Under the pieces are notes generated by a model. That model was not told the origin of the DNA. It saw only the letters and a list, made by a program, of their open reading frames with translations, and did no database searches. Shown here one piece after another: positions 6,160 through 44,590 of a stretch of 48,851 nt of DNA (position 1 is its first letter; every line of letters begins with the position of its first letter). A program made the translations under genes and the position numbers. This DNA comes from Halobacteriales archaeon QS_9_68_17. GTDB taxonomy: Archaea > Halobacteriota > Halobacteria > Halobacteriales > Natronoarchaeaceae. The stretch spans positions 1 through 48,851 of the forward strand of contig PXSA01000028.1 in NCBI GenBank assembly GCA_003023565.1. Direction: 5' to 3'.

Positions 6160-7514
6160 GCGATGTCCTCGTACGTCGGCGCGTCGTCGTCGCCGGGGAA
6201 CTCGTCGACAGGCACCTGCGTCTGGTCGCCGCTCGCCATGTCCTTGATGGTCAGCTCGTCGTTCTCCAGGTCCTGTTCGCCGACGATGACGACCGTCTCG
6301 GCGTTGACCGAGTCGGCGTAGTCGAGTTGCGCGCCGAAGCTCCGCCCGGCGACGTCGCTCTCGACGACGTGGCCGCGCTCGCGCAGGTCGCCGGCGACGC
6401 GGGCGGCGACGGGACGGGTGTCGCCGACCTGCAGGACGTAGTAGTCGGTCGCGAGCTCCTCGTCGGGCCGGACGCCGGCGCGCCGGCAGAGCAAGGAGAG
6501 CGTCGCGTGGCCGGGGGCGACGCCGACCGCGGGGGTGGGCTGGCCGCCGAAGCTCTCGATGAGGTCGTCGTAGCGGCCGCCGCCGAAGATAGAGCGCGAC
6601 ACCTCGCCGGTGGAGTCGAAGCACTCGAAGACGACGCCGGTGTAGTAGTCGAGGCCCCGGGCTGTCTCCAGCGACAGCGTGCAGTACTCGCGGACGCCGA
6701 AGTCCTCGGCGGCGTCCAGCACGTTCTGGAGGTTCGTCACGGCGGCTTCGACGCGGTCCGTGCCGGCGAACTCGACGAGTTCGTCGAGGTCTTCGGCGTC
6801 GACCCGGAGCAGGTCGTCGAAGCGCTCGGCCTGGTCGTAGGAGAGGCCGGCGTCGGTGAGCAGGCCGTGGTACTCCGCCTTTTCGAGCGTGTCGCTCTTG
6901 TCGACGGCACGGATGGCCGCCTCGGTGTCGACGTCGGCGTCGCCGGAACGCGCTGCGTTCCGGCCGGCTTGCGAATCCGGGGATCCGCAACCGTCGAACG
7001 ACTCCAGCAGCCCGCCGAGGATGTCGCGGTGGGAGACGCGGAAGTCGAAGTGCTCGCCGGTGAGGCCCAGATCCGTCATCGCGTCGGCGGCCCACGCGAG
7101 GATCTCGGCGTCGGCGGCGGGGTCGCTGGAGCCGAAGACGTCGACGTTCGTCTGGTAGAACTCCCGGAACCGGCCCTGCTGTGGCTCTTCGTAGCGCCAG
7201 AACGGCCGCGTCGAGAACCACTTGATGGGCTTCGACAGCTCCTGTTGCTTGGCGACGACCATCCGAGCGACCGTCGGCGTCAGCTCCGGGGTCATCGCCA
7301 CGTCGCGGCCGCCCTGGTCCTCGAAGGAGTACAGTTCCTCGACGATGCCCTCGCCGCTCTTGTCGACGTACATCCGCGTCGATTCGAGCGCCGGCGTCCC
7401 GACCTCGCGGAAGCCGTAGCGGCGGGCGGTGTCTTCCAGCGTGTCGATGGCGTCCCGCCGGGCGCTCATCTCGCCAGGGTAGAAGTCCCTGAACCCTTTG
7501 AGTCGCTCGTACAT
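6156..7514 (-). CDS. hisS: Histidyl-tRNA synthetase
   Basis: Class II aminoacyl-tRNA synthetase charging tRNA-His; 452 residues. Recognisable blocks are GFRDFYPGEM at the N-terminus, motif 2 around FRYEEP/GRFREFYQ (here FWRYEEPQQGRFREFYQTN), the histidine-binding block ARGLDYYTGVVFE, motif 3 near GGGRYDDLIE, and a C-terminal anticodon-binding domain. Between LLESFDG and VDTEAAIRAVDK lies an extra stretch of about 20 residues (CGSPDSQAGRNAARSGDAD) whose DNA holds two palindromes. I infer it is a lineage-specific insertion because the flanks would otherwise join directly. The frame is intact. Confidence 0.95.
   Translation of the reverse strand: MYERLKGFRDFYPGEMSARRDAIDTLEDTARRYGFREVGTPALESTRMYVDKSGEGIVEELYSFEDQGGRDVAMTPELTPTVARMVVAKQQELSKPIKWFSTRPFWRYEEPQQGRFREFYQTNVDVFGSSDPAADAEILAWAADAMTDLGLTGEHFDFRVSHRDILGGLLESFDGCGSPDSQAGRNAARSGDADVDTEAAIRAVDKSDTLEKAEYHGLLTDAGLSYDQAERFDDLLRVDAEDLDELVEFAGTDRVEAAVTNLQNVLDAAEDFGVREYCTLSLETARGLDYYTGVVFECFDSTGEVSRSIFGGGRYDDLIESFGGQPTPAVGVAPGHATLSLLCRRAGVRPDEELATDYYVLQVGDTRPVAARVAGDLRERGHVVESDVAGRSFGAQLDYADSVNAETVVIVGEQDLENDELTIKDMASGDQTQVPVDEFPGDDDAPTYEDIA
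6943..6990. repeat. Palindromes inside the hisS insertion
   Basis: Left hairpin 6943-6963: arm CCGGAACGC, loop GCT, perfect 9-bp stem. Right hairpin 6969-6990: arms TTGCGAATCC and GGATCCGCAA, one mismatch, two bases between the arms. Both fall inside the extra linker of HisS and keep the frame. Confidence 0.7.
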
Positions 7515-7581
7515 GTCTCCCGGTAGCGCGGGGGCGCGCTTGAAACCTGTTATCCGCGGGCGGCCGCGCCGCCGCGGAGGG

Positions 7582-8175
7582 TCACTTCCGGACGCCAGTG
7601 ACCCGCGTCTGGTCGTGGTCGGGGAACACCTCGGCGACGGCCTCCTCGCCGTGGCGCTCGGCGAGTAGCGCCCGGAGTTCGCCCTCGTAGTCCGCGCGCC
7701 GGATCTCCTCGCTGGGGCCGACGTCGAGTTCGAGGGTGGCGTCGACGACCCTGTCGACCGCGCCGCGACCGAAGCCCGACAGCGGCGCGATGTAGTCGAC
7801 GCCGTGGCGGTCTTCGAGGCTCTGGGCCTCGGCCCGGGAGACGGTCGGCACGCGGTCGTCCCGTCGCGTGCCGTCGGCGACGGCGTCGAACTCCCGCTCA
7901 GCGAGGCGTTCGAGGGCGTGTTCGTGGACGCGCTGGATACCGTTTCGGGGGTAGCCGTCCTCGTACATCCGGTCGACGGCCTCGACGGCGGCCTCGCGGT
8001 CGAGGTCGAGGCGCTCGAAGGGGAAGCCGACCGTCGCCGCGGTCTCCTCGGCGTGCGTCCACTCGTCGGTGACGCCGAAGCAGCCGGTGACGAGGGTCAC
8101 GTCGTAGAACTCCTCCAGCAGGAGCGCGGCGAGCGTCGAGTCCTTGCCCCCGCTGTAGAGCAGCCCGAGCCGCAT
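7582..8175 (-). CDS. PP-loop ATP pyrophosphatase family protein
   Basis: A 197-residue cytoplasmic protein with the PP-loop SGGKDSTLAALLL at the N-terminus, which binds ATP and adenylates a substrate in this superfamily. A second conserved region, ADGTRRDDRVPT, is typical of the nucleotide-binding site. It resembles the alpha-hydrolase-like branch related to asparagine synthetase, 7-cyano-7-deazaguanine synthase and thiolation enzymes, but lacks cysteine pairs that would point to sulfur transfer. The ATG begins one base after the stop of the PDCD5-like gene, so the two form an operon. Substrate unknown. Confidence 0.8.
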   Translation of the reverse strand: MRLGLLYSGGKDSTLAALLLEEFYDVTLVTGCFGVTDEWTHAEETAATVGFPFERLDLDREAAVEAVDRMYEDGYPRNGIQRVHEHALERLAEREFDAVADGTRRDDRVPTVSRAEAQSLEDRHGVDYIAPLSGFGRGAVDRVVDATLELDVGPSEEIRRADYEGELRALLAERHGEEAVAEVFPDHDQTRVTGVRK

Positions 8176-8176
8176 C

Positions 8177-8530
8177 TCAACGGCGCTTGATGTTGAAACT
8201 GTTCGAGTCGGGCTTGAGTTCCTTGAGGAGTTCCTTCATCTTCTCCTCGTCTATCTTCCCCTGAATGCGACCGCTCTGGGCGAGCGCGACGACCTGGCGC
8301 TCGACCTTCTCACCGAAGTCCGGCTTGCTCATCTTCACGGAGTTCAGTCGCTTGCGCGCGCCGTCGGTGAGATGCTGCCGGAGGACCGCCTGCTTCTGGG
8401 CGTCGGCCTGCTCCTGCTGGCGCTTGCGGGCCTCCTCGTTGCCGCCCTGCTGCTGCTGTTGCTCCTTGAGCTGTTCCATCTTCTTGCGTCGAAGCTCGTC
8501 GAGTTCGTCGTCGTCGGGGCTACCGCTCAT
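8177..8530 (-). CDS. PDCD5/TFAR19-family DNA-binding protein
   Basis: A 117-residue basic-acidic helical protein matching the archaeal DNA-binding family related to human PDCD5. A charged N-terminal helix is followed by a glutamine-rich run (KEQQQQQGG) and the conserved core [19 protein letters not shown]. The C-terminus [15 protein letters not shown] is near-invariant in the family. The ATG at 8528-8530 ([10 protein letters not shown]) is chosen over an in-frame start at 8563 that adds a non-conserved leader. It leads the operon with the PP-loop gene. Confidence 0.9.
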
Positions 8531-8669
8531 AGGAGCCCATTGCGTTGCTGGCGGCAAAATCATTACGGACGAGAGGGATCAGCCGACGACGGCCGACGAA
8601 CCGCGCGCAGCGAGTGGTCGGACGGAGAGAACAGAGAGCGCGAAGGAGAGCGTCGACGGTCGGTCGCGT

Positions 8670-8927
8670 CTATCGACGGGAGGTCGCGTACAGGACCGGA
8701 CCGACGATGAGCAACACGATACCGAAGTAGCGAAACTGGATGGGCGCTTGGCTGCTCGGGGTTATCAGGAAGATGAGGCCGAAGACGAGCACGTTCAGCG
8801 ACAGCACTCTCTGTGATTTCAGCGGCAGCGACCCGAGGATCGACAGCACGAACAGCAGAAAGATGGCGTGCCCGATGTTGTAGTCGAGCAGGAAATTGTC
8901 GAGCGCCTGCAGCGGTATCTCGGTCAT
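8670..8927 (-). CDS. Small membrane protein, function unknown
   Basis: 85 residues with three predicted membrane segments: IGHAIFLLFVLSILGSL, VLSLNVLVFGLIFLI and FGIVLLIVGPVLYATS. The helices are separated by short polar turns, and the stop follows two arginines. Hydrophobic pattern and ATG start (8925-8927) support a real gene. No family was recognised. It may be co-transcribed with the next small membrane gene upstream (gap about 40 bp). Confidence 0.65.
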   Translation of the reverse strand: MTEIPLQALDNFLLDYNIGHAIFLLFVLSILGSLPLKSQRVLSLNVLVFGLIFLITPSSQAPIQFRYFGIVLLIVGPVLYATSRR

Positions 8928-8966
8928 CCCTATCGGACACTGCCGCCGATTCGGTCTTTAAACTTG

Positions 8967-9176
8967 TTATTCCGACTGGACCGGCCCCGTGATCTCCATG
9001 TGTCGGAGCCAGACGTACCAGACCACGAACGCCATCGTCCCGAACCCCAGCGCCCATGCGAGCGATCCGAGCGTCCCGTACCCCGCGCTGGTCAGGAAGT
9101 AGTTCGCCAGTCCCGGGAGGACGACGCCGGTCGCCAACACGACTCCGAACGCGACTTTCTCGGAGACCACGGTCAC
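8967..9176 (-). CDS. Small two-helix membrane protein, function unknown
   Basis: About 70 residues with two membrane segments (VAFGVVLATGVVLPGLANYFL and LGSLAWALGFGTMAFVVWYVWL) and a short polar tail, EITGPVQSE. No ATG is available. GTG codons at 9174-9176 or 9192-9194 could start it; the inner one leaves a leader that runs straight into SEKVAFG. It lies just upstream of the other small membrane gene on the same strand. Function is unknown. Confidence 0.55.
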   Translation of the reverse strand: MTVVSEKVAFGVVLATGVVLPGLANYFLTSAGYGTLGSLAWALGFGTMAFVVWYVWLRHMEITGPVQSE

Positions 9177-13000: not shown

Positions 13001-13074
13001 TGGGCCAACGCGGATTTGAACCGCGAACCTCCCGGTTATCAGCCGAGCGCTCAACCTGATTGAGCTACTGGCCC
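13001..13074 (-). tRNA. tRNA-Ile (GAT anticodon)
   Basis: Folds as a complete cloverleaf of 74 bases. The acceptor stem pairs GGGCCAG with TTGGCCC plus discriminator A at 13001. The D arm starts TAGCTCAATCAGGTTGAGC, the anticodon stem CCGAGC-type helix frames the loop CTGATAA (anticodon GAT at 13038-13040), and the T loop is TTCAAAT. CCA is not encoded and there is no intron. Its 3' end is duplicated at 12841. Confidence 0.95.
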
Positions 13075-18614: not shown

Positions 18615-19633
18615 GTGAGCAACGAGATGGAGGACTGGTTCGAACGCGCGATCCAGAGCGAGGAGGGGGCGGCGGGAGACGACACCGACATCGATGCTGA
18701 CGGCACCGACGCCGACGGCACCGAGGCCGACCCGACGGCCGCCTCGACAGACGAGGGCTTCGAGTCGGGCGATCCGACGGACGAGAGCGATCCCGCGGGC
18801 GACGGCGACGTGCCGGACGATCCGTTCCCCGAAGACGACGGCGCTCGGCGTCGACGGCGACCCCGCGGCCGACGACGGGGTCGGGACGGACGACGGCCTC
18901 GACGGCGGCGACTTCGGTATGGGCGGCGACGACTTCGGTATGGGCGGTGCCGCCGGCCTCGCCGACGAGTTCGACGACGAGGACTTCGAGTCCGAACTCT
19001 CCCGCATCGAACTCGGCATCGAGGGGTTGGACGACATGATTCAGGGCGGCGTCCCCGAGCGCTCCCTGATGGTCACCATCGGTAGCGCCGGGACCGGGAA
19101 GACCACCTTCGGCCTACAGTTTCTCAACCACGTGCTCGAACAGGGCGAGCGAGCAGTGTACATCACGCTGGAGGAGAGCGACCAGCGCGTCATCAACAGC
19201 GCGACCGAGAAGGGGTACGCCTTCGACGAGTACGTCGACGAGGGCCGCCTCGCCGTCGTCGACATCGACCCCGTCGAGATGGCCAACAGCCTCACTTCGA
19301 TCCGGAGCGAACTCCCTCGACTCGTCGACGAGTTCGGCGCGAGCCGGCTCGTAGATATACGACTTCACGAAGAGCCTGAAGAACGCCGGCGTGACGACGA
19401 TGCTGACCAGCGAGGCGAGCGAGGACAACGCCTACGCCTCCCGTCACGGCATCGTCGAGTACCTCACCGACGCCGTGTTCGTCCTCCAGTACGTCCGCCC
19501 CTCGGACTTCCGGGAGACCCGCCTCGCCGTCGAGATCCAGAAGATCCGCGACGCCAACCACTCCCGCGAGACCAAGCCCTACGAGATCACTAACGAGGGC
19601 CTGAGCGTCTACCGGCAGGCGAACATCTTCTGA
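18615..19633 (+). pseudogene. KaiC-like RecA-superfamily ATPase, broken
   Basis: A GTG at 18615 starts SNEMEDWFERAIQSEEG and an acidic low-complexity region. Near 18840 the frame shifts by one. The new frame carries SELSRIELGIEGLDDMIQGG, Walker A GSAGTGKTTFGLQFL and VYITLEESDQRVINSATEKG. At about 19355, after GASRLV, it shifts again into YDFTKSLKNAGVTTMLTSEA and a normal C-terminus. KaiC-family proteins have a Walker B strand and about 20 residues at that junction (V-V-D-S-x-S). They are missing, so the second break is a deletion rather than a read error. Confidence 0.75.
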
Positions 19634-20049
19634 ACGAGCTTTTGCGCTGTCGTTCGGAAATCGCTCTGCGATTTCCGTGATGACGAGACGGCGGAGCCGT
19701 CTCGATCACGGCGTGACGAGCGGTCCGCCGCGGGCGGACACGCTTGCAGTCATCGGCGAAAGTTCGACGAAATCCTCTTTCTCCTCGCTCGCTACGCTCG
19801 CGCCGTTCAGTCGTCGGACCGTCCCGAGAAGTGCGCTGCACTTCTCGTGGGCTGCGAAAACCGCCTCGCGATCTTCGAACGCTCACTCGCCGCACTCGTT
19901 CGCTCGCGGCTGCAGTGCGTGCGGACCGCCTGCCCTTCCCCGGCTCCCGGGACGCTCGGCGCGTGGCCTCGCGTCGCGCTCCCGGCCGCGGAGTTCGGAA
20001 ACCGTTCTCCCACCGTACACGTCAGTCACCCCGTGTACTCGCCTCGTCC
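19634..20049. other. Non-coding stretch between the KaiC-like relic and herA
   Basis: No credible coding sequence. The first half is occupied by a run of short palindromes listed separately; the rest shows only repeats of short CGCTCG-like words common in haloarchaeal spacers. Confidence 0.6.
19655..19847. repeat. Cluster of triplet-loop palindromes
   Basis: Four perfect hairpins, each with a three-base loop: 19655-19677 (arm CGGAAATCGC, loop TCT); 19684-19704 (arm CGAGACGGC, loop GGA, extended by an outer pair of arms CCGTGAT/ATCACGG at 19675 and 19705); 19723-19739 (arm GTCCGCC, loop GCG); 19825-19847 (arm CGAGAAGTGC, loop GCT). The arm sequences are unrelated. There is no T-tract, so simple terminators are unlikely. 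Confidence 0.8.
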
Positions 20050-21999
20050 TTACTCTCGCCCGTGTTTCGTGAGGCACTTCGAGAGGCCGATGAGTTCGAC
20101 GGGTTCCGAGTTGTCCGGCGAGTAGACGACCATCTGGCCCTTCTCCATGTACGGCACCTTCCCCTCCAGGCTCGAGGGGATGTTCACCGAGGAGATGGCG
20201 TCCTCGTCGCCGAGGTTGAGGACGACGGTGGTGTTTATCTGCTTGAACACTGAGTCGGCGATGTCCTGCGGGTCCTGCGTGATGAGGAACAGGCCGAGGC
20301 GCTCCTTGCGGCCCTGCTTCGCCGCGTCGGTGAACTTGCCGATCACCTTGCGGGCCTGCACGCTCTCGGCGTCGGTGAGGAAGTTGTGCGCCTCGTCCAT
20401 CCCGACGACCAGCGGCGTCTCCTTGATGCGGTCGTACGTCGGCGCGTTCGACAGCTTCTGGTCGATGAGCAGGCTGGACACCGCGAGGACGATGACCTCC
20501 GTCGCCCGCGTGTCGTTGACGTGGTAGGTGGGGACGACGGTGAGGCCGCCGGGGCGGACGAGTTCCGACACCAGGTCCGTGATGGGGCGGGCGTCGGCGT
20601 CGAACACGTCGCCGAACCCGCGGACGCGCCGCGTGACGGCGTCGAACGTCGCCTCGTGGACGCGGCCGCTCTCGTCGAGTTCCTCCCGCAGCGCCGGGTC
20701 GTCGAGGAACGAGCGGAACTGGTCGTACGTGCCCTCGTCGCCGTACTGCCGGAAGAAGCGGTCGACCAGCACGTCCAGCGCGTTGAACTGGTTGTCGTTC
20801 AGGCTTCCGCCGGCGATGAGCCAGCGGTTCGACCGCACCATCGAGAACGGTATCGTGAACTCCACCTGCTCGGCGCGGTGGTGGTCGGCCCCGTAACTCG
20901 TCCCGTCGACGACCGGGACCAGCGCCTTCGTGTCGTCGTGCCCGCCGTGGGCGACCCCCTCGCGTTCGTAGCGCCGCCGGTCCTCGGCGGTGATCTCGGG
21001 GTTGTCGTCGTGCATCTGCGCGTACTCGTCCTGTGGGTCGAACTGCACGACGGCGGCGCGGGCCTGCCGGCCGTCCTCCATGTCGTAGGTCCGCTCCTCG
21101 TCCAGGAACTGCCGCAGGACGTTCTTCGAGGCGTGGGTCTTTCCGGACCCCGTCCCGCCGGCGACCAGCGTGTGCCGGAAGGCGAGCGGGTCGCCGTCCT
21201 CGTAGTCGTCTTTCAGGCGGTAGTCGATGGTCGGCGGCTCCGCCGCCGTCCGGACCTTCTCGCCGCCGACCGAGAGGTGCCCGAGGAAGACGCCGTCGTC
21301 CGGCATCTTCAGCCCCGTCTTGATCTCGGAGGCGTCGGTCGCCTCCCGGACCGGCGTCTCGGGTTTCGGCACGCGGTCGGTCATCCGCCGCTTCAGTTCG
21401 CCGTCGTCTCGCGGCTCACCGCCGCTCGGCGTTTCCGCGGAGTCTCGGGAGACTTCGTCTCCCGATGGTCGGGAACCCTCCGATTTCCCTTGACGTTGCT
21501 CCGCGCTTTCCTCGTAGAGGACCGCGACTGGCTCCAGCGACGCGAGGAACTTGTAGTCGGCCTCGTCGATGCCGTCCTTGCGCATCGCGCGCCGGGCGTG
21601 GATCTCGGTCGCGTCGTCACTCGCGTACTCCTGGACGTACTCGAGCGCGGTGATCCGACAGAACAACTTCTCGCCGGTCGAGGCCCCGCGCCCGCCCTCG
21701 TTCGGGTAGGGGACGAGCAGGTACTTCCCGATGCGGACGTTCGGGCGGTTGTCCGCGGTGACGTACGCCCGCAGGGTGGTCTCGTCTTCCGCCTCGCCGA
21801 TGCAGAGCCCCTCGGAGACGGCGACCGTCCCGATGCCCCGGTCCTCGCCGGCGACGGTCGCGTCGACCTCCTCGAACGCGTCGGCGTCCGCGCTCGCATC
21901 GCCGTCCGCGGACGCCCCGTTCCCCGATACGTCGGCGGAGGACGGCTCCTCCGCGTCGTCGTCGGGGTCGTACTCGGTGTAATCTCCCAGGTCGGCCAT
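20050..21999 (-). CDS. herA: HerA-type DNA translocase/ATPase
   Basis: Hexameric FtsK/HerA-family ATPase that partners NurA in end resection during recombinational repair. 649 residues from ATG 21999 (MADLGDYTEYDPDDD). An acidic N-terminal tail and HAS-like beta domain precede Walker A AGGTGSGKTHASKNVL (about residue 285) and Walker B PLVVGMDEAHNFL. The sensor region ITQDPQDIADSVFKQ and the C-terminal brace follow. Between VAVLYEE and DDGELKRRMTDRV is a linker of about 35 residues rich in S, E and G, whose DNA holds a palindrome (21445-21465). nurA lies 1 kb away on the same strand. Confidence 0.9.
   Translation of the reverse strand: MADLGDYTEYDPDDDAEEPSSADVSGNGASADGDASADADAFEEVDATVAGEDRGIGTVAVSEGLCIGEAEDETTLRAYVTADNRPNVRIGKYLLVPYPNEGGRGASTGEKLFCRITALEYVQEYASDDATEIHARRAMRKDGIDEADYKFLASLEPVAVLYEESAEQRQGKSEGSRPSGDEVSRDSAETPSGGEPRDDGELKRRMTDRVPKPETPVREATDASEIKTGLKMPDDGVFLGHLSVGGEKVRTAAEPPTIDYRLKDDYEDGDPLAFRHTLVAGGTGSGKTHASKNVLRQFLDEERTYDMEDGRQARAAVVQFDPQDEYAQMHDDNPEITAEDRRRYEREGVAHGGHDDTKALVPVVDGTSYGADHHRAEQVEFTIPFSMVRSNRWLIAGGSLNDNQFNALDVLVDRFFRQYGDEGTYDQFRSFLDDPALREELDESGRVHEATFDAVTRRVRGFGDVFDADARPITDLVSELVRPGGLTVVPTYHVNDTRATEVIVLAVSSLLIDQKLSNAPTYDRIKETPLVVGMDEAHNFLTDAESVQARKVIGKFTDAAKQGRKERLGLFLITQDPQDIADSVFKQINTTVVLNLGDEDAISSVNIPSSLEGKVPYMEKGQMVVYSPDNSEPVELIGLSKCLTKHGRE
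21445..21465. repeat. Triplet-loop palindrome inside herA
   Basis: Arm TCGGGAGAC, loop TTC, perfect 9-bp stem, located in the extra linker of HerA without breaking the frame. Confidence 0.7.
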
Positions 22000-22138
22000 A
22001 CGCCTGACATGCGAACCCGCTGTTAAAACCTTTCCCACGTGCGGCGGGCGGACCGGTGGACCGCGACTGGATCCGAGGGGCTCTCCACCGATTCGGCGCA
22101 CCCGTGGCCTTATTCGTTCCCCGTCCTTACTGTGTGTT

Positions 22139-29445: not shown

Positions 29446-31056
29446 ATGAACGCGGCGATCATCGTCCTCGATGGGTGGGGAATCGGCGATCACGACCGGC
29501 GCGACGCCATCAGAGCGGCTGATACGCCGAACTTCGACCGATACGCGGAGGCGGGCGCGTACGGGACGCTGACCGTCATGGGCCGGCGGGTCGGCCTCCC
29601 GGACGGCCAGATGGGCAACAGCGAGGTCGGCCACCTGAACATCGGGGCCGGCCGCGTGGTCAAACAGGAGTACACGCGCATTGCGGACTCCATCGAGGAG
29701 GGCACGTTCCACACGAACGACGCGCTTCAGTCGGCGTCCACGTACGCCAAGGAACACGGCGGGCGGGTCCACTTCATGGGTCTCGTGAGCGACGGCGGCG
29801 TCCACTCCGACTACGAACACCTGTTCGCGCTCATCGAGATGGCCGCCGAACGGGGTGTCGAGGCGGTCACGCACGCGTTCACCGACGGCCGCGACACGGA
29901 CCCGACCGGCGGGGCGGGCTACCTCCGCGAACTGGAGGAGGTCGTCGAGGAGCACGGCACCGGCGACGTCGCGACCGTCACGGGACGCTACTACGCGATG
30001 GACCGTGACCAGAACTGGAACCGGACGAAGCGCGCGTACGACGCCATCACGCGGAGCGCGATGAGCGATCGGAACTCGGAGAGTTCTGATGACGCCATCG
30101 TGAACCGCGAAGCCGACCACGAGTCCGCCTCGTCCATCGCCGCCGTCGAGGAGTCGTACGACCGCGGCGACACCGACGAGTTCGTGGAACCGACGCTGGT
30201 GCGGGGTCAGCCAGCCCTCGAAGGCGCCGACGAACGGCGTTCGTCGAGCCATCGAGGCAAGCTCGATGACGGCGACGCGGTCGTTTTCTTCAACTACCGT
30301 TCCGACCGCGCCCGCCAGCTGACGCGGATGCTCGCGGACATCGACCCCGTCTGGGAGTTCGAGACGTCGCCGCCGGACGTCGAGGTCGTGACGATGACCC
30401 AGTACGACAAGACGTTCGACCTGCCGGTGGCGTACCCGCCGCACCAGCCCGAGAACACGCTCGGCGAGGTCCTCGCCGAACACGGCCGCACGCAGCTGCG
30501 GATCGCCGAGTCCGAGAAGTACCCCCACGTCACCTACTTCCTGAACGGCGGGCGCGAGGTGGAGTTCGACGGCGAGGTCCGCGAGATCGTCGAGTCGCCG
30601 CCGGTCGCCACCTACGACATGCAACCGGAGATGAGCGCCGAGGGCGTCACGGACAACGCCATCCGCCTGACCGACGCCGACGACCCCGACGCGCTCGTCC
30701 TGAACTACGCCAATCCGGACATGGTGGGCCACACCGGGAACTATCAGGCGGCGATCACCGCCGTCGAGACCGTCGACGAGCAACTGGGCCGTCTCGTCGA
30801 CCACCTCCGGCGGCGCGGGGCACACGTCCTCGTCACCGCGGACCACGGCAACGCCGACGACATGGGCACCGAGGAGGACCCCCACACCGCCCACACCTAC
30901 AACGCCGTCCCGCTGGTCTATCTCGACCCCGAGGGGACCGACGGCGGGCGGCGCGTCCGCGAGGGCGGGACGCTCGCGGACATCGCGCCGACGGTGCTGT
31001 CGCTGCTCGGCGACGAGCAACCGGCCGCGATGACCGGCGAGAACCTGCTGGAGTAG
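29446..31056 (+). CDS. gpmI: 2,3-bisphosphoglycerate-independent phosphoglycerate mutase
   Basis: Interconverts 3- and 2-phosphoglycerate in glycolysis and gluconeogenesis. 536 residues from ATG 29446; a GTG three codons earlier is possible. The N-terminus AAIIVLDGWGIGD and the catalytic serine block GQMGNSEVGHLNIGAGR are typical, and the metal-binding tail VTADHGNADDMG with HTAHTYNAVPLVY is complete. Two stretches (about residues 206-225 and 250-275, including SDRNSESSDDAIVN and ADERRSSSHRGKLDD) are extra linkers carrying palindromes. The stop is followed immediately by the convergent stop of a broken membrane gene. Confidence 0.93.
   Translation: MNAAIIVLDGWGIGDHDRRDAIRAADTPNFDRYAEAGAYGTLTVMGRRVGLPDGQMGNSEVGHLNIGAGRVVKQEYTRIADSIEEGTFHTNDALQSASTYAKEHGGRVHFMGLVSDGGVHSDYEHLFALIEMAAERGVEAVTHAFTDGRDTDPTGGAGYLRELEEVVEEHGTGDVATVTGRYYAMDRDQNWNRTKRAYDAITRSAMSDRNSESSDDAIVNREADHESASSIAAVEESYDRGDTDEFVEPTLVRGQPALEGADERRSSSHRGKLDDGDAVVFFNYRSDRARQLTRMLADIDPVWEFETSPPDVEVVTMTQYDKTFDLPVAYPPHQPENTLGEVLAEHGRTQLRIAESEKYPHVTYFLNGGREVEFDGEVREIVESPPVATYDMQPEMSAEGVTDNAIRLTDADDPDALVLNYANPDMVGHTGNYQAAITAVETVDEQLGRLVDHLRRRGAHVLVTADHGNADDMGTEEDPHTAHTYNAVPLVYLDPEGTDGGRRVREGGTLADIAPTVLSLLGDEQPAAMTGENLLE
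30068..30090. repeat. Triplet-loop palindrome in gpmI (first)
   Basis: Arms ATCGGAACTC and GAGTTCTGAT around the loop GGA; ten pairs with one G-T. Confidence 0.6.
30228..30268. repeat. Palindromes in gpmI (second)
   Basis: 30228-30246 has arm CGACGAAC and loop GGC, perfect 8-bp stem. 30250-30268 has arm CATCGAG and a five-base loop. Confidence 0.6.
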
Positions 31057-31403
31057 TTACGGAGCGGCCCGATCCTCCTCCACCGGCGGGAGGGCGAACG
31101 AGAGCGTGACGGACGCGACGGTCGCGACGAGCAGGCCGGCGGCGACCGCGACCCCGACGTCCGCGAACGCCCCCGTGAGCATCGAGACCGACCCGACCGA
31201 GAGGCCGACCCCGAGGGCACCCTCGTGGGTCCCGCCCGGAGAGCCGTGCCTCTACTGCCTCGTTCCGGGCGAAGATCACGAGGAGCACGCCCGAGGTAGC
31301 TCTCGAACGGGACGTACGCGACGGCGGCGAAGGGTACCCCGCCGAACGCGCCGAACGCCTTCGCGACCAGTTCCGTCCGTCCGTTTCCGTCTTCCGATCC
31401 CAT
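31057..31403 (-). pseudogene. Small membrane protein gene, disrupted
   Basis: From ATG 31403 the frame gives TELVAKAFGAFGGVPFAAVA and YVPFESYLG. It then continues plausibly only after a shift (VLLVIF), and again in a third frame as LGVGLSVGSVSMLTGAF with a long final membrane segment (VAVAAGLLVATVASVTLSFA) ending EEDRAAP. So a two- or three-helix membrane protein appears interrupted around 31215-31300. The 99-bp repeat copy at 31177-31275 overlaps this region. No family recognised. Confidence 0.55.
31177..31275. repeat. 99-bp direct repeat, copy 1
   Basis: Identical to 31723-31821 over all 99 bases, with mismatches right outside both ends. Its left third encodes (minus strand) part of the membrane segment of the disrupted gene, suggesting this is the source copy. 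Confidence 0.9.
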
Positions 31404-31503
31404 GTTCCCCGCTTACGTTCCCTGCGCTCGACCGTTCCCGAACCGCGAGACGTCGCCGGCGTGAGGGGCACCACTATACGGTCTCGGTCCGAACCGTCCG
31501 AAC

Positions 31504-32183
31504 ATGTGGTCGTTCGAACGCCCGGAGTTCGACACCGACGTTCGGAAGCGGGTCTTCGCCCACGTGGAGCGCCACGGGACGGTCGAACCGTCGACGGTCG
31601 CGTCGGCCATCGGGGTCGACCCCGAGAGCTTCAATCACCACGTCACCGTGCTCGAGCGCGACGGCTATCTGGAGAGCGTCGACGGCGACCTTCGGGTCGC
31701 CCGCGACCCGGGCGAGGCCGAGGAGCATCGAGACCGACCCGACCGAGAGGCCGACCCCGAGGGCACCCTCGTGGGTCCCGCCCGGAGAGCCGTGCCTCTA
31801 CTGCCTCGTTCCGGGCGAAGAACGTCGTCGAGACCCGGATGTTCTTCGTCGGCACCGTCGGCGACGAGGTGGTCGGCTGGGCGCACGTCGAAACGCCGGA
31901 GATAGCGAAGCTCGCCCACACCGCCGAACTCACCCTCGGCGTGATGGAGGGCTACCGGCGGCACGGCATGGGGAGTCACCTCCTCCAGCGCGCGCTGGAG
32001 TGGGCCGCGTCGAACGGCCTCGAAAAGGTGTACAGCAGTCTCCCCTCGACCAACGGCGTCGGCGTCGACTTCCTGCACTCGCTCGGGTGGGAGACGGAGG
32101 CGGTCCGCGAAGGCCACTACCGGGTGGACGGCGAGTTCGTCGACGAAGTGATGCTGGCGAAGCGCCTCGACCGGGGACCGTGA
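31504..32183 (+). pseudogene. HTH-GNAT acetyltransferase, middle replaced
   Basis: ATG 31504 starts WSFERPEFDTDVRKRVFAHV, a winged-helix-like domain ending RVARDPGEAEEH. There the second copy of the 99-bp repeat intervenes. The frame then shifts, and the C-terminal half of a GNAT fold continues as MFFVGTVGDEVVGWAHVETP, LAHTAELTLGVMEGYRRHGM (acetyl-CoA-binding loop) and DFLHSLGWETEAVREGHYRV. The first half of the GNAT domain is missing. Read as an insertion with deletion, not a working enzyme. Confidence 0.7.
31723..31821. repeat. 99-bp direct repeat, copy 2
   Basis: Exact copy of 31177-31275, 546 bp away, at the breakpoint of the HTH-GNAT gene. Confidence 0.9.
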
Positions 32184-32189
32184 CCCGCC

Positions 32190-33008
32190 CTAACCGGTCC
32201 TGAACGAGTAATCGAGCGAGGCGGCGGAGTGGGTGAGCGACCCCATCGAGACGACGTCGACGCCCGTCCGCGCGTACGCGGGCACGTCGTCGACCGTGAT
32301 CCCGCCGGAGGCCTCCGCGAGCGTGTCGGTCTCGGCCTCGCGCAGCAGTTCGACCGCATCGGCCGTCTCCTCCGGCGTCATGTTGTCCAGCAGGACGATA
32401 TCCGCGCCCGCGGCGGCGGCCCGCGGCGCGTCGGCCGGGGCCTCCACTTCGGCTTCGACGTTCGTCGCGAACGAGGCCGACTCGCGGAAGTGCCGGACCG
32501 CTTCCTCCAGTCCCATCTCCGCGGCGTGGTTCTCCTTGACCATCACCATGTGCGAGAGGTCGAGGCGATGGGTGTCGCCGCCGCCCGCCGCGACAGCGCG
32601 CTTCTCGACGCCGCGGAGGCCCGGCGTCGTCTTGCGGGTGCCCGCGATAGCGACGGCGTCGGTCGCCTCGCGGGCCGCGTCGACCGCCGCCCGCGTTTTC
32701 GTCGCGACGCCGGAGGCGTGGCCGGCGACGTTGACGGCGACGCGCTCACCACGGAGGACGGACTGGGCGTCGCCCTCGCAGGAAAGCACGGTGTCGCCCG
32801 GGTCAACGCGGTCGCCGGCGTCGACCCGCGGTTCCGCGTCGACGCCGAGGTAGTCGAACACCGCTTCGGCGGCGTCGAGGCCGGCCGCGAGGCCGGTCTC
32901 TTTCGCCACGAGGCGACCGGTCGTCTCGCCGGGCACGTCGTTGGTGACGTCGTGGTGGCCCAGGTCCTCCCGTAGCCAGCGCTCGACCTGCAGGTCGGTG
33001 ACCGGCAC
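32190..33008 (-). CDS. nadC: Nicotinate-nucleotide pyrophosphorylase (quinolinate phosphoribosyltransferase)
   Basis: Converts quinolinate and PRPP to nicotinate mononucleotide, the third step of de novo NAD synthesis. 272 residues from a GTG at 33006-33008 that begins two bases after the nadB stop. The substrate-binding block AIAGTRKTTPGLRGVEKRAV, the HRLDLSHMVMVKENH motif and EASGGITVDDVPAYARTGVD are complete. The longer in-frame start at 33059 would overlap nadB and is basic. Last gene of nadA-nadB-nadC. Confidence 0.93.
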   Translation of the reverse strand: MPVTDLQVERWLREDLGHHDVTNDVPGETTGRLVAKETGLAAGLDAAEAVFDYLGVDAEPRVDAGDRVDPGDTVLSCEGDAQSVLRGERVAVNVAGHASGVATKTRAAVDAAREATDAVAIAGTRKTTPGLRGVEKRAVAAGGGDTHRLDLSHMVMVKENHAAEMGLEEAVRHFRESASFATNVEAEVEAPADAPRAAAAGADIVLLDNMTPEETADAVELLREAETDTLAEASGGITVDDVPAYARTGVDVVSMGSLTHSAASLDYSFRTG

Positions 33009-33010: not shown

Positions 33011-34468
33011 TCAGTCCCCCGCGGTCACGGGTTCGTCGGCGGTGTCGAGGTAGTGGCAACCGACCGACTCCTCGTTCTCCGCCGCGGCGCGAGCGACGAG
33101 GAGGGCCGTGACGCTCGCGTTCCGCAGTTCGTACAGGTCCCGCGCGGTGCGGGTGCGGACGTAGGCGTCGACCTCGCCTTTGAGTCGTCGGAGGACGGCA
33201 GTCGCGCGCCGGAGGCCGTCCGGCGTGCGCCGGATCCCGACCTTCTCCTCCATCACCCGACGGAGGCGGGTGAACTTCTCCGCGGCGAACCGCGGCGGCA
33301 GGTCGGGGTCGCTATCGAGTAGCTCCGGCGGCTCGCTCTCGACGACCTCGTTGCCGACAGCCGCTTCCCCGGCGCGCAGGCCCCAGACGAGGCCTTCGAG
33401 GAGGCTGGTGCTGGCGAGGCGGTTCGCGCCGTGGACGCCCGTCCGCGCGCACTCGCCGACGGCGAACAGGCGGTCGAGGCTCGTCCGCCCGCGGTCGTCC
33501 ACGTCGACGCCGCCACAGAGGAAATGCTCGCAGGGGTCGAGGGTCACCTCGCCGGTGGCCTCGCGCTCTGCGGCGACGGCGCGGGCGACCACGTCCCGCG
33601 GCGCGAGTTCGGCGTCCGCGTGGTAGTCGGGCATGAACCGCTCGCCGTCGCCGTTCCGGAGCAGCGCGCCCTCGCCGCGGACGGCCTCGCTGACGAGGAA
33701 GGCGTCTTCGCCGTCGCCGCTCGCGGACGCCGTCGGGTGGAACTGCACGTACTCCATGTCCGCCACGTCGGCACCGGCCAGCGCGGCCATCGCGACCCCG
33801 TCGCCGGTCGCGCCGGGCGGGTTCGTCGAGCGCCGGTAGCAGGCCCCGATGCCGCCGGTCGCCAGCACCGTCGCGCCCGCGAAGACGGGGTCGCCGCCCG
33901 GCGCGGAATCGAGGAGCGCGCCGTGGACGCGCCCCTCATGGGTGATCAGGTCGAGCGCCGCGGTGTCGTCGCGGATCCGGACGTTCTCGTGACCGTCGAG
34001 GTAGTGCAGGAACGGCCGGAGGACGTGCCGACCGGTGCTCGCGTCGACGTGAAGGATGCGATCCGCGGAGTGACCGGCCTCGCGGGCGAAGTCGTAGCCG
34101 GCACCCGACTCGTTGTCCGCCTCCGGCCGACCGCTCGTCGAGGTCTCCTCGACGGTGTCGAAGTCCACGTCGAGCGTCTCCACCAGCACGTCCGCGACGG
34201 CGGCGGGCGCGTTCTCGACGAGCACGTCGACGGCGTCGGGGTCAGCCGTGCCCGCGCTGGCCGCGACGATGTCCTCGCGGAGCGACGCGGGGTCGCCTCG
34301 GGTCGTCGCGATGCCGCCCTGCGCCCAGTCGGTGCTCGCGTCCTCCGGGCGCTCGGCCTTCGTGACGACGAGGACCTCCGCGCCCTCGCGGGCGGCGGCG
34401 AGCGCGGCGCTGCACCCGGCGATGCCGCTGCCGACGACGAGCACGTCGGCGGTGGTGCCGTCCGTCAT
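33011..34468 (-). CDS. nadB: L-aspartate oxidase
   Basis: FAD enzyme oxidising L-aspartate to iminoaspartate for quinolinate synthesis. 485 residues from ATG 34468, overlapping the nadA stop (ATGA). The FAD-binding fold starts VLVVGSGIAGCSAALAAARE. The conserved STDWAQGGIATTRG, SADRILHVDASTGRHVLRPF, GVDVDDRGRTSLDRLFAVGE and the C-terminal ELRNASVTALLVARAA region are present. Central gene of the NAD operon, translationally coupled to nadA. Confidence 0.95.
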   Translation of the reverse strand: MTDGTTADVLVVGSGIAGCSAALAAAREGAEVLVVTKAERPEDASTDWAQGGIATTRGDPASLREDIVAASAGTADPDAVDVLVENAPAAVADVLVETLDVDFDTVEETSTSGRPEADNESGAGYDFAREAGHSADRILHVDASTGRHVLRPFLHYLDGHENVRIRDDTAALDLITHEGRVHGALLDSAPGGDPVFAGATVLATGGIGACYRRSTNPPGATGDGVAMAALAGADVADMEYVQFHPTASASGDGEDAFLVSEAVRGEGALLRNGDGERFMPDYHADAELAPRDVVARAVAAEREATGEVTLDPCEHFLCGGVDVDDRGRTSLDRLFAVGECARTGVHGANRLASTSLLEGLVWGLRAGEAAVGNEVVESEPPELLDSDPDLPPRFAAEKFTRLRRVMEEKVGIRRTPDGLRRATAVLRRLKGEVDAYVRTRTARDLYELRNASVTALLVARAAAENEESVGCHYLDTADEPVTAGD

Positions 34469-40502: not shown

Positions 40503-40504
40503 GG

Positions 40505-41329: not shown

Positions 41330-42290
41330 ATGACCGCTCTTCCAACCCTCGCGCCGGTAAACCGACGCGTCGTCCGCGTAGCGCCGGCAGACGACACGCC
41401 GACCGACGCGCTCGACGCCGCGGCCCTCCTCGAACGGTTCCGCGACGCGGGGGACGACGAGCCGGTCCTCGTCTACGCGGCGGCGGTCGACGACGAGGCG
41501 GTCGATCGTGTCCTCTCCGCGGGCGGGGACTACTTCCCCGCCGGGACCGACACCCCCGATCGCTCGCTCCTCCGCGAACGCGTCCGGTCGCTCGTCGACG
41601 CCCGGCGGACCCGTACGGCTCTCCGGCGGGAAGCCGACCTCCTCGAACGGGTCCCCAGCGTCGCCGGCCGGGACCTCCGCGGTCCGATCGGGATGGCACG
41701 GGCGTCCGGAGACGGTCCGCGAGCGAACGGCCCGCGACAGCCTCGACCGGATCGAGTACGCGATAGACCGGACCGCCGACCTGTCCGGCGGCGTGCCTGC
41801 GCTCGTGCGGGCCGGTTCCGCGGTGACCGATCCGGAACCGGTCGACCTGACCGCCGTCGCCGAGTGCTCGGGGGCGGCCGTCGCGGACCGGCCGGTCGAC
41901 GTGCGCGTCGCCGAGGTCCTCCCGACGGTGTCGGGCGGCGTGACCCGGGTCGCGAGGCTGTTCGAGATCCTCTACGCGAACGCGGCGGACCACGGGCTCC
42001 CGGACCCGGTGGACGGGTCCCTTACGGTGCGGGTCGAACCCACCGGGACCGGCTTCCGCGTCGCGGACGACGGTACCGGGATCCCCGAGGACGAACGCGA
42101 GGCGGCGTTCGACTGGAGCGTGAGTACGGCCGACGACCGCGTCGGTGTCGGTCTCGCCGTCGCCGACGCGATCGCCGAGGCGCACGGGTGGAGCGCGACG
42201 GTCTCGGAGGGTTCCGAGGGCGGGGCGCGCTTCCGGTTCGCGTTCGACCGCGCCCGGAGGCTCGTGAACGACGAACCGCCCGCGCAGTGA
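41330..42290 (+). pseudogene. Sensor histidine kinase paralogue, degenerate
   Basis: From ATG 41330 a receiver-like N-terminal half (VLVYAAAVDDEAVDRVLSAG, DRSLLRERVRSLVDARRTRT) leads directly to a kinase core that breaks by one frame at about 41700. The second frame gives DSLDRIEYAIDRTADLSGGV, VADDGTGIPEDEREAAFDWS and VGVGLAVADAIAEAHGWSAT. Against the neighbour at 42355 it lacks the PAS/LOV segment. The phospho-accepting histidine motif (S-H-D-L-R-N-P) has become G-R-D-L-R-G-P. Dead in three ways. Confidence 0.8.
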
Positions 42291-42303
42291 ACCGGCCGAC
42301 GGG

Positions 42304-42311
42304 TATATTTA
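42304..42311 (+). promoter_or_regulatory. TATA-like box of the LOV kinase gene
   Basis: TATATTTA, 44 bases before the ATG at 42355, in the gap after the degenerate paralogue. Confidence 0.4.
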
Positions 42312-42354
42312 GCGGTACCGAGTACGACCGATAATCACAACAGGACGGTTACGC

Positions 42355-43776
42355 ATGGACAGCCAAACCGAGTTTCAGGAGACGACCGATACCGAAGTCC
42401 TGCTCGTCAGGCTGAGAGAGGGCGAGGTGACCGAGACGCTCGAAACCGCCGGCTTCGAAGCAACGATCCGCTCCGGTTCTGACGACGTCCCCGAAGCCGT
42501 GGCGGCGGCCGACCCGGACTGCGTAGTCGTCGACCACGACCCCCCGGTCCTCGACGCCCGGACGGTCCTGGAGCGGATACGCGACGCGGGACACGACCAG
42601 CCGTTTCTCCTTTATTCCCCGGAGATCGACGACGCCGTCGTCGAACGGGTGCTCGCCGACGGCGGGGCCTACCTCTGCGAGCACTCGGACACTGCGGACC
42701 GATCGCTTCTCCTCGCGCGCGTCCAGTCGCTCGCGGAGTCGTACCGGAGGGAAAAGTGGATCGGACTCCGGGACCGCGCGGTTGACCAGGCCCCGATCGG
42801 GATCACCATCGCCGACGCCGACGACCCCAACGAGGAACTCGTCTACGTGAACGACCGGTTCGAAACCGTGACGGGCTACGACGCGGACTTCGCCGTCGGT
42901 CGGAACTGCCGGTTCCTCCAGGGGCCGGGCACCGACCCGGCGACCGTCGACAGGATCAGGGAGGCGATCGACGCGCGGGAAACGATCTCGGAAGTCGTGC
43001 TGAACTACGACGCCGACGGCACCCCGTTCTGGAACCAGCTGGACATCGCGCCGGTGCGCGACGAGAGCGGCGATATCACGCACTTCTTCGGCTTCCAGAA
43101 GGACGTCACCGAGCGACAGGAACTGAAGCGGGACCTCCGTCGACAGCAGGAACTGCAGGAGCGCTTCACCGGGATCGTCAGCCACGACCTCCGCAACCCG
43201 ATCGGCCTCGCGCAGGGTCACCTCGCCCTCCTGCAGGAGGAGTACGACGACGAGAGCTTAGACCAGATCGATTACGCGCTCGAACGGATGCTGACGCTGA
43301 TCGACGACGTGCTCGAACTGGCCCGTGGCGGCACCGCCGTGGGGGACCCGTCGCCGGTCGATCTCTCGGCGGCGGCCGCCGCGGCGCGAGCGACCGTCAG
43401 GGACCAGCGAGTCGGCGTCCGGATCGACGACGACCTCCCCCACCCGGAGGGCGACCCGGACCGTCTCACGACGCTGTTCGAGAACCTCTTTCGCAACGCG
43501 ACGGAACACGCCACCGACGACGGAGAGCCGGCGACGGTCCGCGTCGGCCGGTCCGAGCGGGGGTTCTACGTGGAGGACGACGGTTCCGGGATCCCCGAGG
43601 ACGAGCGCGAGTCGGTGTTCGAGTGGGGGGTCACGTTCGCAGAGGACGGGACGGGGTTCGGTCTCGCCATCGTCGGCGTCATCGCGGAGGTCCACGGCTG
43701 GGCCGTGACGGTGGGGGAGGGGTCCGACGGGGGCGCGCGCTTCGAGTTCGAGTTCGACGGGACGCCGACGGTCTGA
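42355..43776 (+). CDS. LOV-domain sensor histidine kinase
   Basis: A 473-residue soluble kinase. Residues 1-130 form a receiver-like domain (VLLVRLREGEVTETLETAGF; AADPDCVVVDHDPPVLDART). Residues about 145-255 are a LOV/PAS domain with the diagnostic GRNCRFLQGPGTDP (182-195; Cys185 is the expected flavin-adduct residue). NYDADGTPFWNQL and HFFGFQKDVTER supply the flavin-contacting Asn217, Asn227 and Gln248. The kinase core has the H box IVSHDLRNPIGLAQGHLALL (His277), N box NLFRNATEH, and G boxes DDGSGIP and GTGFGLAI. No membrane segment. Blue-light sensing is predicted from the motif. Confidence 0.9.
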   Translation: MDSQTEFQETTDTEVLLVRLREGEVTETLETAGFEATIRSGSDDVPEAVAAADPDCVVVDHDPPVLDARTVLERIRDAGHDQPFLLYSPEIDDAVVERVLADGGAYLCEHSDTADRSLLLARVQSLAESYRREKWIGLRDRAVDQAPIGITIADADDPNEELVYVNDRFETVTGYDADFAVGRNCRFLQGPGTDPATVDRIREAIDARETISEVVLNYDADGTPFWNQLDIAPVRDESGDITHFFGFQKDVTERQELKRDLRRQQELQERFTGIVSHDLRNPIGLAQGHLALLQEEYDDESLDQIDYALERMLTLIDDVLELARGGTAVGDPSPVDLSAAAAAARATVRDQRVGVRIDDDLPHPEGDPDRLTTLFENLFRNATEHATDDGEPATVRVGRSERGFYVEDDGSGIPEDERESVFEWGVTFAEDGTGFGLAIVGVIAEVHGWAVTVGEGSDGGARFEFEFDGTPTV

Positions 43777-43807
43777 TAGGGACTGCTGTAACTGTTGACC
43801 GGTGTCC

Positions 43808-43823
43808 GGCGACCCGGGTCGCC
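43808..43823. terminator. Perfect palindrome after the LOV kinase gene
   Basis: A 16-base perfect palindrome beginning GGCGACCC lies between the kinase stop and the convergent GNAT gene. It could act as a bidirectional end signal; no T-tract follows. Confidence 0.3.
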
Positions 43824-43861
43824 GAAGCACCGAAACGACTCACAGCAGTTCCCATGAGCCG

Positions 43862-44341
43862 TCACTCGACGCCGGACTGCCCGCTCCCGTCGGCCAGCGC
43901 CTTCTCCATCGTCACGTGCGGGATCCCCGCCTCCTCGAACTCCTCACCGACGCGCTCGTAGTCGAGGCGGTCGTAAAACGGCGCGGCGTGGGTCTGGGCG
44001 TGGAGTGTGACCCGGTCGTACCCCCGTGTCGCGGCGACGCCCTCCACCTCGCGCATGATCTCCCGGCCGTACCCCTCGCCGCGGTGCTCTCGTAGAACCG
44101 CCACGCGCTCGACCTTGGCGGCGTCGTCGCCTTTCTCCCGCAGTCGCGCGGCCCCGGCCGGGTCGCCGTCTCGATACGCGACGAAATGAACCGATTCGTT
44201 CTCGTACTCGTCGGCTTCGAGGTCCTCCGGGACGTCCTGCTCGTCGACGAACACGGCGTACCGCACGCCGAGCGCGTCGTCGTACTGGTCGTCGGTTCGC
44301 ACCACCTGCACGTCGAGGTCGCGGGCGTCCGCGTGGCTCAT
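43862..44341 (-). CDS. GNAT family N-acetyltransferase
   Basis: 159 residues. ALGVRYAVFVDEQDVPEDLE and HFVAYRDGDPAGAARLREKG are followed by the acetyl-CoA loop VERVAVLREHRGEGYGREIM (Q/RxxGxG/A form) and a C-terminal LHAQTHAAPFYDRLDYERVG. It resembles the ElaA/YitI-like branch of small-molecule acetyltransferases; substrate unknown. ATG at 44339-44341. Same strand as icd, about 230 bp downstream of its end. Confidence 0.88.
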   Translation of the reverse strand: MSHADARDLDVQVVRTDDQYDDALGVRYAVFVDEQDVPEDLEADEYENESVHFVAYRDGDPAGAARLREKGDDAAKVERVAVLREHRGEGYGREIMREVEGVAATRGYDRVTLHAQTHAAPFYDRLDYERVGEEFEEAGIPHVTMEKALADGSGQSGVE

Positions 44342-44461
44342 CGTGCCGGCGTAGTCACTCCGGGATAGAGAGGGTTGCGGACGGGTGTCCGAGGTCTGCT
44401 ACGACGACCGAAAAGGATCGAGTCCGAACGCGAGGTCCCGGAGAGCCGACCCGCGAACGCT

Positions 44462-44590
44462 CTACGAAAGTCTTCCGATGTATCCGGACTCCGTCCGGAT
44501 GCCCGAAAAGCTCTCTACGAGAGCTTTTCGATGTCGTCAGACGCCGGCGGCGTCTGACTGTCAGAGAAACTTTCTAGGAAAGTTTCTCGA
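44462..44590 (-). repeat. Tandem copies of the icd tail with triplet-loop palindromes
   Basis: Downstream of icd, the tail I-E-K-L-S-stop (44574) recurs as DIEKLS-stop (stop at 44515) and, degenerate, as YIGRLS-stop (stop at 44462), 53-59 bp apart. Four hairpins with three-base loops lie across it: 44482-44500 (arm ATCCGGAC, loop TCC), 44504-44530 (arm CGAAAAGCTCTC, loop TAC), 44536-44558 (arm GTCAGACGCC, loop GGC) and 44564-44588 (arm GAGAAACTTTC, loop TAG, covering the real stop). Confidence 0.8.

Follow-up and report, generated by a model that had tools for sequence, protein, structure and literature searches.

The best-known protein-coding palindromes are those of Rickettsia and Wolbachia. 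The 48,851 nucleotides analyzed here (C28:1-48851, hereafter the window, from the assembly of Halobacteriales archaeon QS_9_68_17, 2,882,595 bases, 89% complete) contain hairpins with three-base loops, both between genes and inside genes such as hisS, herA and gpmI. This raises the question whether such palindromes are written in place by mutation or are copies of an element that is inserted. The answer for the coding copies is that they are short palindromes inserted in one frame of ordinary haloarchaeal genes, where polar stretches are added to the proteins and the DNA can still be folded into two hairpins.

A family of coding double hairpins

The following coding inserts were found in the window (R1 is the covariance model described below).

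6938..6991, minus strand: hisS insert of 54 nt, in the gene at 6156-7514 (minus strand), encoding about GCGSPDSQAGRNAARSGD
21410..21511, minus strand: insert of about 102 nt in the herA-like gene at 20050-22005 (minus strand), consisting of TCGGGAGAC-gaa-GTCTCCCGA and an imperfect hairpin with a GGA loop
30040..30090, plus strand: gpmI coding element 1 of 51 nt, R1 match at 30042-30093, peptide AITRSAMSDRNSESSDD
30223..30267, plus strand: gpmI coding element 2 of 45 nt, R1 match at 30225-30270, peptide ADERRSSSHRGKLDD
34112..34157, minus strand: coding element in an L-aspartate oxidase-like gene, R1 match, peptide TVEETSTSGRPEADN
47467..47512, plus strand: coding element in the beta-aspartyl-peptidase/asparaginase-like gene at 46877-47893 (plus strand), R1 match, peptide ADERSSSSSRSQAHE

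R1 was built on ten hand-picked coding inserts, nine of which came from the QS_9_68_17 genome. At E<=1e-3 it gave 47 dispersed matches in this genome, 3, 1, 5 and 5 matches in the four congeners used for comparison (G001-G004, genus Halostella) and 1, 7, 2 and 9 matches in four genomes from other genera of the family. Most coding inserts of the window, namely the two in gpmI and those in the L-aspartate oxidase-like and asparaginase-like genes, are members of the R1 family. No match at this threshold was obtained for the HisS insert, the HerA insert of QS_9_68_17 or the intergenic hairpins. The original prediction had described the arm sequences as unrelated and as no conventional repeat family, which did not hold for the coding copies, as their arms are related. 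Diverged copies are missed by R1, an example being the insert present in G004 at site C15:8719, which was not matched at E<=1e-3.

Each element consists of two hairpins of 7-9 bp with loops of about three bases, separated by a spacer of 3 nt. The inserted length is 45 bp, or 48 or 51 bp in longer-armed copies. Alignment of inserts from different genes gave about CGWCGAGC-nnn-GCTCGWCG for helix 1 and about TCGGAC-nnn-GTCCGA for helix 2, and the 46-nt copies have CGCCGnCGAGCAAAGCTCGTCGAGCnnTCGGACGnAGTCCGAnGAC as their majority sequence. Coding elements were also seen in tandem, at a spacing of exactly 45 or 90 nt, in three other places (G070:C3:154089-154179, G238:C4:24779-24869 and G076:C10:586333-586558).

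Forty-five of the 47 matches in the QS_9_68_17 genome were readable, representing 44 places, one of which was matched on both strands; nine of the 45 were in the training set. The matches were 46 nt (28), 52 nt (11) or 49 nt (2) long, with four of odd length. All 45 were open throughout in a single sense frame, with a peptide of roughly [AT][DV]EQSSSS.RT.SDD, and the inserted peptides were 15-17 residues long, polar and mostly acidic. This common frame was the best of the six in 42 of the 45 when chosen by length and codon-position bias and in 29 of the 45 by open reading frame length alone; codon-position bias was added to the choice because GC-rich DNA has many long false open reading frames. 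The three exceptions were the L-aspartate oxidase copy, for which homology supports the common frame, C37:10501/10502, which is the reverse reading of a common-frame place, and the ambiguous C18:70256. A similar result was obtained with 54 matches from other genomes (48, plus six of 21, these being the four best and two weaker ones in herA; the opposite-strand duplicate L201 was omitted), 51 of which were in sense in the same phase.

A control matrix, scoring positions as well as pairs, was trained on 24 distinct 46-mers from outside the genus and used to scan 780,753 bases of the QS_9_68_17 genome. At a score of at least 22, 14 hits were found, compared to none in five dinucleotide shuffles and none in five within-gene codon shuffles. 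At a score of at least 10 there were 24 hits, compared to 1.8 in the dinucleotide and 1.8 in the codon shuffles. Twelve of the 15 hits scoring at least 20 were in sense in the same phase and three scored antisense. These results bear on the possibility that the palindromes form purely locally and de novo, each hairpin being made from neighboring sequence by polymerase strand switching and no mobile family existing. Local formation is difficult to reconcile with one consensus in coding inserts at unrelated loci, with the recurrence of a single 46-nt sequence across dozens of genes and with a matrix from outside the genus that finds the inserts at scores unreached in shuffles. Because a sequence is shared by many sites, purely local palindrome formation cannot account for everything; copying from one site to another has also occurred.

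The family is widespread in haloarchaea. Class-wide (292 genomes) and phylum-wide (148 genomes) searches were run with strict filters, 21 and 42 candidates, respectively, being scored per genome, and their counts are lower bounds. At least 199 of the 292 class genomes, covering at least 59 of 77 genera, had one or more R1 matches at E<=1e-4. In the phylum-wide draw at least 14 of the 148 genomes had a match, all of them in the order of the window, a contrast weaker than it appears since GC content differs outside the class. The HerA linker that is interrupted in QS_9_68_17 also holds R1-type elements in Natrinema altunense, N. pallidum and N. thermotolerans, as well as weakly scoring ones in N. 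gari and a Halovivax sp. (L144, L153, L135, L126, L150). Another named carrier is a histidine-kinase-like gene of Salinibaculum. Histidine-kinase-like genes with an element at ...LFRN-AVEHG... were seen at L188:20716, L279 and L290 and at C18:149182 of QS_9_68_17, and the native AVEHG codons of these genes are similar to the first arm of the element. This gene family may be a source or a hotspot of the element.

Empty sites and paired arms

The palindromes in hisS, herA and gpmI had been predicted to lie in extra, polar linkers that preserve the frame, and this was borne out: they coincide with inserts absent from all four congeners. The 54 nt of HisS, comprising two adjoining hairpins (GCCGGAACGC-gct-GCGTTCCGGC at 6942-6964 and an imperfect neighbor), were missing from all ten aligned orthologues, the four congeners among these. 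The approximately 102 nt of HerA were missing from six of six, with G002 retaining about 11 nt of unrelated length, and both GpmI inserts were missing from eight of eight. HerA family scores of the herA-like gene were under the curated cut-offs, and its insert is perhaps an element with a second element nested in the first loop. In gpmI, element 1 was bounded by an exact 9-bp repeat, GACGCCATC, and the site of element 2 was also filled in G104 (L286). The reverse case was seen in HMG-CoA reductase, where the QS_9_68_17 gene is empty, an insert of 48 nt is present in G003, and G004 has two extra stretches of 17 and 24 nt that include a hairpin with a GGA loop. An AlphaFold model of GpmI aimed at locating the inserts had a mean pLDDT (predicted local distance difference test) of 38 and was discarded.

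Twenty sites of the QS_9_68_17 genome were compared with G001 and G004. The 38+38 flanking residues were joined without the insert and searched in both genomes, followed by alignment at the DNA or protein level. DNA-level alignments, covering 13 sites and 20 orthologues, each had a clean gap of 45, 48 or 51 nt. Among the 38 congener comparisons with clear orthology, 34 lacked the insert, three had the element (C17:31543 in G001, C40:41079 and C15:8719 in G004) and one had a different 15-residue stretch (C17:52244 in G004). C18:149182, a histidine-kinase-like gene with paralogues, was left out of the 38 due to uncertain orthology. At 19 of the 20 sites, G001, G004 or both were empty. At C11:9689, four residues present in both congeners were absent from the QS_9_68_17 gene. 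We infer mobility from the dispersed related copies and the clean presence or absence at these sites.

Pairing was studied in 88 copies, each 46, 49 or 52 nt long and with sufficient flanking sequence. Helix 1 was Watson-Crick paired in 666 of 704 cells (11 G.T, 27 other) and helix 2 in 551 of 616 (15 G.T, 50 other), values that are inflated as the copies were found with a model rewarding pairing. Likewise, alignment A1 had a structure better than that of shuffles and slid partners, its members having been picked for pairing. Codons of insert residues 2 and 7 fitted complementarity in 79 of the 88 copies: D-S 37, V-T 21, A-A 10, E-S 6, G-P 3 and I-M 2. This covariation also bears on the idea that proteins in high salt were convergently selected for hydrophilic Ser/Asp/Glu linkers, the palindrome being a by-product. 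Such selection would suit the polar, mostly acidic peptides, but a dependence between residues 2 and 7, including Met opposite Ile, is left unexplained by selection on the protein, and this explanation is hardly credible to us.

We compared the leftmost 9 nt of the element (GAC nnn nnn) with the 9 nt that follow it. The agreement was 515, compared to 472.8 in permuted pairs (standard deviation 7.9; reached in none of 3000 permutations), which is suggestive of a short target duplication that was later blurred.

Three-base loops and the icd cluster

Outside the R1 family, the window contained the following hairpins between genes and at a gene end.

19655..19704, plus strand: intergenic double triloop hairpin between convergent genes, CGGAAATCGC-tct-GCGATTTCCG / tgatga / CGAGACGGC-gga-GCCGTCTCG
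19723..19739, plus strand: intergenic 7-bp triloop hairpin from the stem scan, weak, its length being at chance level
19825..19847, plus strand: intergenic 10-bp triloop hairpin, CGAGAAGTGC-gct-GCACTTCTCG
44482..44588, minus strand: four hairpins in tandem at the icd 3' end (gene at 44574-45851, minus strand), the hairpin at 44564 spanning the stop codon

The window was scanned for maximal perfect stems, with ten dinucleotide shuffles as controls. Nine of twelve hairpins predicted to be perfect with three-base loops were as described: 6942 (10 bp), 19655 (10), 19684 (9), 19723 (7), 19825 (10), 21445 (9), 44482 (8), 44504 (12) and 44564 (11). Two more, 30228 and 44536, were perfect with a GGC loop of complementary ends, giving a strict count of 9 bp + 1 and 11 bp + 1. 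The hairpin at 30068 was imperfect, ATCGGAACTC-GGA-GAGTTCTGAT, with six Watson-Crick pairs at the loop, one G.T and three more pairs. Triloop stems in the window numbered 15 compared to 6.2 in shuffles (at least 7 bp), 10 compared to 2.2 (at least 8 bp), 7 compared to 0.9 (at least 9 bp) and 5 compared to 0.4 (at least 10 bp). The claim that the hairpins exceed chance thus stands for the long stems; several of the 7-8 bp stems are at chance level. No Rfam match at the gathering threshold was obtained at the window hairpins, the sole match in the window being a tRNA gene at 13001-13074 (minus strand).

An excess of three-base loops, also predicted, was found not only in the window but also in 780,753 of the 2,882,595 bases of the genome (27%, window included), in both cases against shuffled controls. 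In the latter scan, loop size 3 gave 110 stems of at least 8 bp compared to 28.7 in three shuffles, the highest ratio among loop sizes 0-30. Loop size 1, which takes in triloops with complementary ends, gave 103 compared to 49.3, and the remaining sizes were in 1.0-2.4 fold excess. Five of the ten triloop stems of at least 10 bp were in the window, which is richer than the rest of the scanned genome. DNA mini-hairpins with C(GNA)G loops have unusual stability. Counting every stem of at least 8 bp around three bases, GNA/TNC loops numbered 46 compared to 4.8 expected, and other three-base loops 108 compared to 41.8. According to a crude gene finder, the excess was strongest between genes (35 compared to 6.0) and was 74 compared to 32.6 within genes. 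The congeners were scanned for GNA loops and double hairpins over 100 kb each.

The icd cluster has a regular order. On the icd strand of QS_9_68_17, the gene end with its stop codon is followed by an inverted copy and then by a second hairpin. This series of gene end with stop, inverted copy and hairpin occurs once more, and the cluster closes with a third gene-end copy. Two of the gene-end copies match ATCGARAARCTYTCNTAG and the third is diverged. One round of target-hairpin-hairpin-target was present in G001, G003 and G004, two in QS_9_68_17 and none in G002, and wherever a round was present the new arm was an inverted copy of the adjacent gene end, a feature shown at the icd locus only. 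The cluster looks like two successive double-hairpin insertions with target duplication. Fold-back copying with a return to the target start would explain how arms without outside homology arise.

Several observations speak for purely local formation. In addition to the excess of triloops with varied arms, the icd hairpin arm is the gene's own 3' end, the second icd-end copy of G004 reads as a quasi-palindrome, and at one shared site the loops TGC and GCA are inverted between QS_9_68_17 and G004. The mechanism is a described one: in the accessible parts of PMC8794818 and PMC8604942, template-switch mutations create perfect hairpins, equalize arms and invert loops. Strand switching had been put forward in the original prediction as the origin of the palindromes, and it fits the icd 3' end and some of the paired arm changes; alone it cannot explain the shared coding consensus. 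As the sole explanation we regard it as distinctly doubtful.

The intergenic hairpins have their architecture in common with the coding family, and perhaps the fold-back step too; one sequence family is not claimed. A hairpin of G001 aligned to the 19655 pair (L094:16490) differed in the loop but had almost identical arms. The word YCGTGATG joins several intergenic hairpins and, compared to one shuffle, occurred 107 vs 48 times in QS_9_68_17, 16 vs 4 times in G001 and 21 vs 10 times in G004. Two near-identical 13-bp hairpins at L044:11638 and L044:18041, about 6.4 kb apart and with a common left flank gcaatgacacac, are perhaps the ends of one element. Among other genes of the window, a KaiC-domain gene at 18694-19593 (plus strand) is without 59 nt (near 19353) present in all four congeners; its family match stops half-way and the gene looks broken in QS_9_68_17. 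The stretch SIETDPTERPTPRAPSWVPPGEPCLYCLVPGE occurs twice in the open reading frame at 31106-32203 (plus strand), and the low-complexity protein encoded at 47912-48835 (minus strand) has abundant DNES/DMAD/MNET repeats.

Movement, maintenance and known palindromic elements

We consider it fairly probable that the coding palindromes are a mobile protein-coding palindrome behaving like the Rickettsia palindromic elements (RPE), with arms that are kept paired partly by fold-back template switching. The coding double hairpin would be a non-autonomous element. Its folded single strand, exposed in replication or transcription, may be copied to new places, with a preference for GAC-type sites. Survivors would be only in-frame sense copies in tolerant stretches, where a Ser/Asp/Glu-rich linker of 15-17 residues is added. 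Palindromy would be renewed partly by fold-back (snap-back) template switching, one arm templating the other. Such renewal would produce the paired arm changes, the three-base loops and, at icd, both the arm copying the gene end and the repeat of the target past it.

Several observations weigh against this reading. The copies on which the control matrix was trained were themselves found with R1, so that this control tests chance and not the path of discovery. In ten arm comparisons at orthologous filled sites there were 22 single changes, 7 double Watson-Crick changes and 1 other; three of the comparisons overlap, and counted once they leave 17 single, 5 double and 1 other. As one-sided changes outnumber paired ones, the arms also decay in the ordinary way. 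Some of the paired differences, moreover, are those between subfamilies. Neighboring 9-nt windows were in mild excess as well (z 2.7 and 2.1), and the 9-bp agreement was exact in 2 of 41 copies of QS_9_68_17, one being a tandem copy. Target repeats around other double hairpins were not found beyond icd (2 of 52 tests at a score of at least 9, with 0.75 expected), and no moving enzyme was found. Finally, the sites of gpmI insert 2 and C20:187637 hold the element in distant genera but not in congeners, and 3 of the 20 tested sites are shared with one congener. Part of the pattern may be due to old insertion followed by precise loss or gene exchange.

Taken further, the whole pattern could be due to old insertions spread by homologous recombination or gene exchange and repeatedly and precisely lost, with little or no present transposition. 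This is the main rival and a serious one, even if improbable in our estimate. The inserts at the two sites just named have unusual arms in common with the same sites in distant genera (L286, L280), and a protein-level check of the remaining sites raised the standing of this rival slightly and lowered that of the mobile reading a little. However, the 47 matches compared to 1-5 in congeners and the 34 of 38 empty comparisons suggest a recent burst in the QS_9_68_17 lineage.

A bolder form of the mobile reading, that this is class-wide haloarchaeal selfish DNA moving by fold-back DNA synthesis and not by a classical transposase, is in our view possible, if rather unlikely. A hairpin nucleus would enter a GAC-type site, the target would become the outer first arm and the complementary arm would be copied from it, every insertion thereby writing a new site-specific palindrome. 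Variable arms, codon-to-codon covariation, target repeats and the finding that all copies were coding and in frame would follow from such synthesis.

Movement by a Y1 (HUH) transposase that recognizes single-strand hairpins, as for REP/IS200-type elements, would suit the conservation of structure over sequence. No PF01797 match was found in the QS_9_68_17 genome (0 candidates, assembly 89% complete) or in G302, G153 and G184, which carry at least 14, 12 and 9 R1 matches, respectively; this also separates the elements from the RAYT-associated REP (repetitive extragenic palindrome) and BIME (bacterial interspersed mosaic element) systems. Conversely, G060, which had the most PF01797 matches (10) of 39 genomes tested, lacked any R1 match at the E<=1e-4 threshold. 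The elements can apparently do without a Y1 transposase as mover, and this explanation is very unlikely.

The likeness to RPE, drawn in the original prediction without sequence homology, was apt. RPE are, in the accessible part of PMC2229807, palindromic repeats in frame within conserved protein genes, tolerated as extra peptide, of 105-146 bp with long stem-loops, and also intergenic; a title cited there refers to Wolbachia equivalents, and the paper mentions archaeal repeats whose open reading frames are fused into protein genes. The haloarchaeal elements resemble RPE in that related palindromic copies are dispersed in one genome and are inserted in frame in conserved genes (45 of 45 open) at sites mostly empty in close relatives. 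They are set apart by size and fold (45-51 bp, two separate hairpins of 7-9 bp), by absence between genes (all 45 readable R1 matches fell within an open frame) and by host, the comparison being one of descriptions. A 2005 report by Suyama reportedly describes palindromic repeats in Methanocaldococcus jannaschii, most of them lying between genes and a few in coding sequence. Compared by description, these are like the haloarchaeal inserts in being archaeal elements in protein genes. PARCELs, according to the accessible part of PMC2996958, are protein-coding repeats with DNA dyad symmetry that spread within and between genomes. They are 25-residue amphipathic tandem repeats, unlike the haloarchaeal inserts, which are 15-17-residue, hydrophilic and mostly single. 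Template switching, in turn, is a mutation process and the haloarchaeal inserts are a dispersed sequence family. No earlier report of haloarchaeal coding double hairpins was found in the open literature, a search whose scope left most subscription papers outside; the accessible part of PMC3990103 treats inteins and clustered regularly interspaced short palindromic repeats (CRISPR), not such elements.

The haloarchaeal double hairpins are a much smaller version of protein-coding palindromes; about two in three of the class genomes sampled carry them, and a single species has dozens of copies. We know of no account of how protein-coding palindromes move. Empty sites in close relatives and the existence of cultured carriers make movement and maintenance by template switching directly testable here. 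The elements are also a concrete source of new protein loops in haloarchaea, and a pitfall for alignments and annotation.

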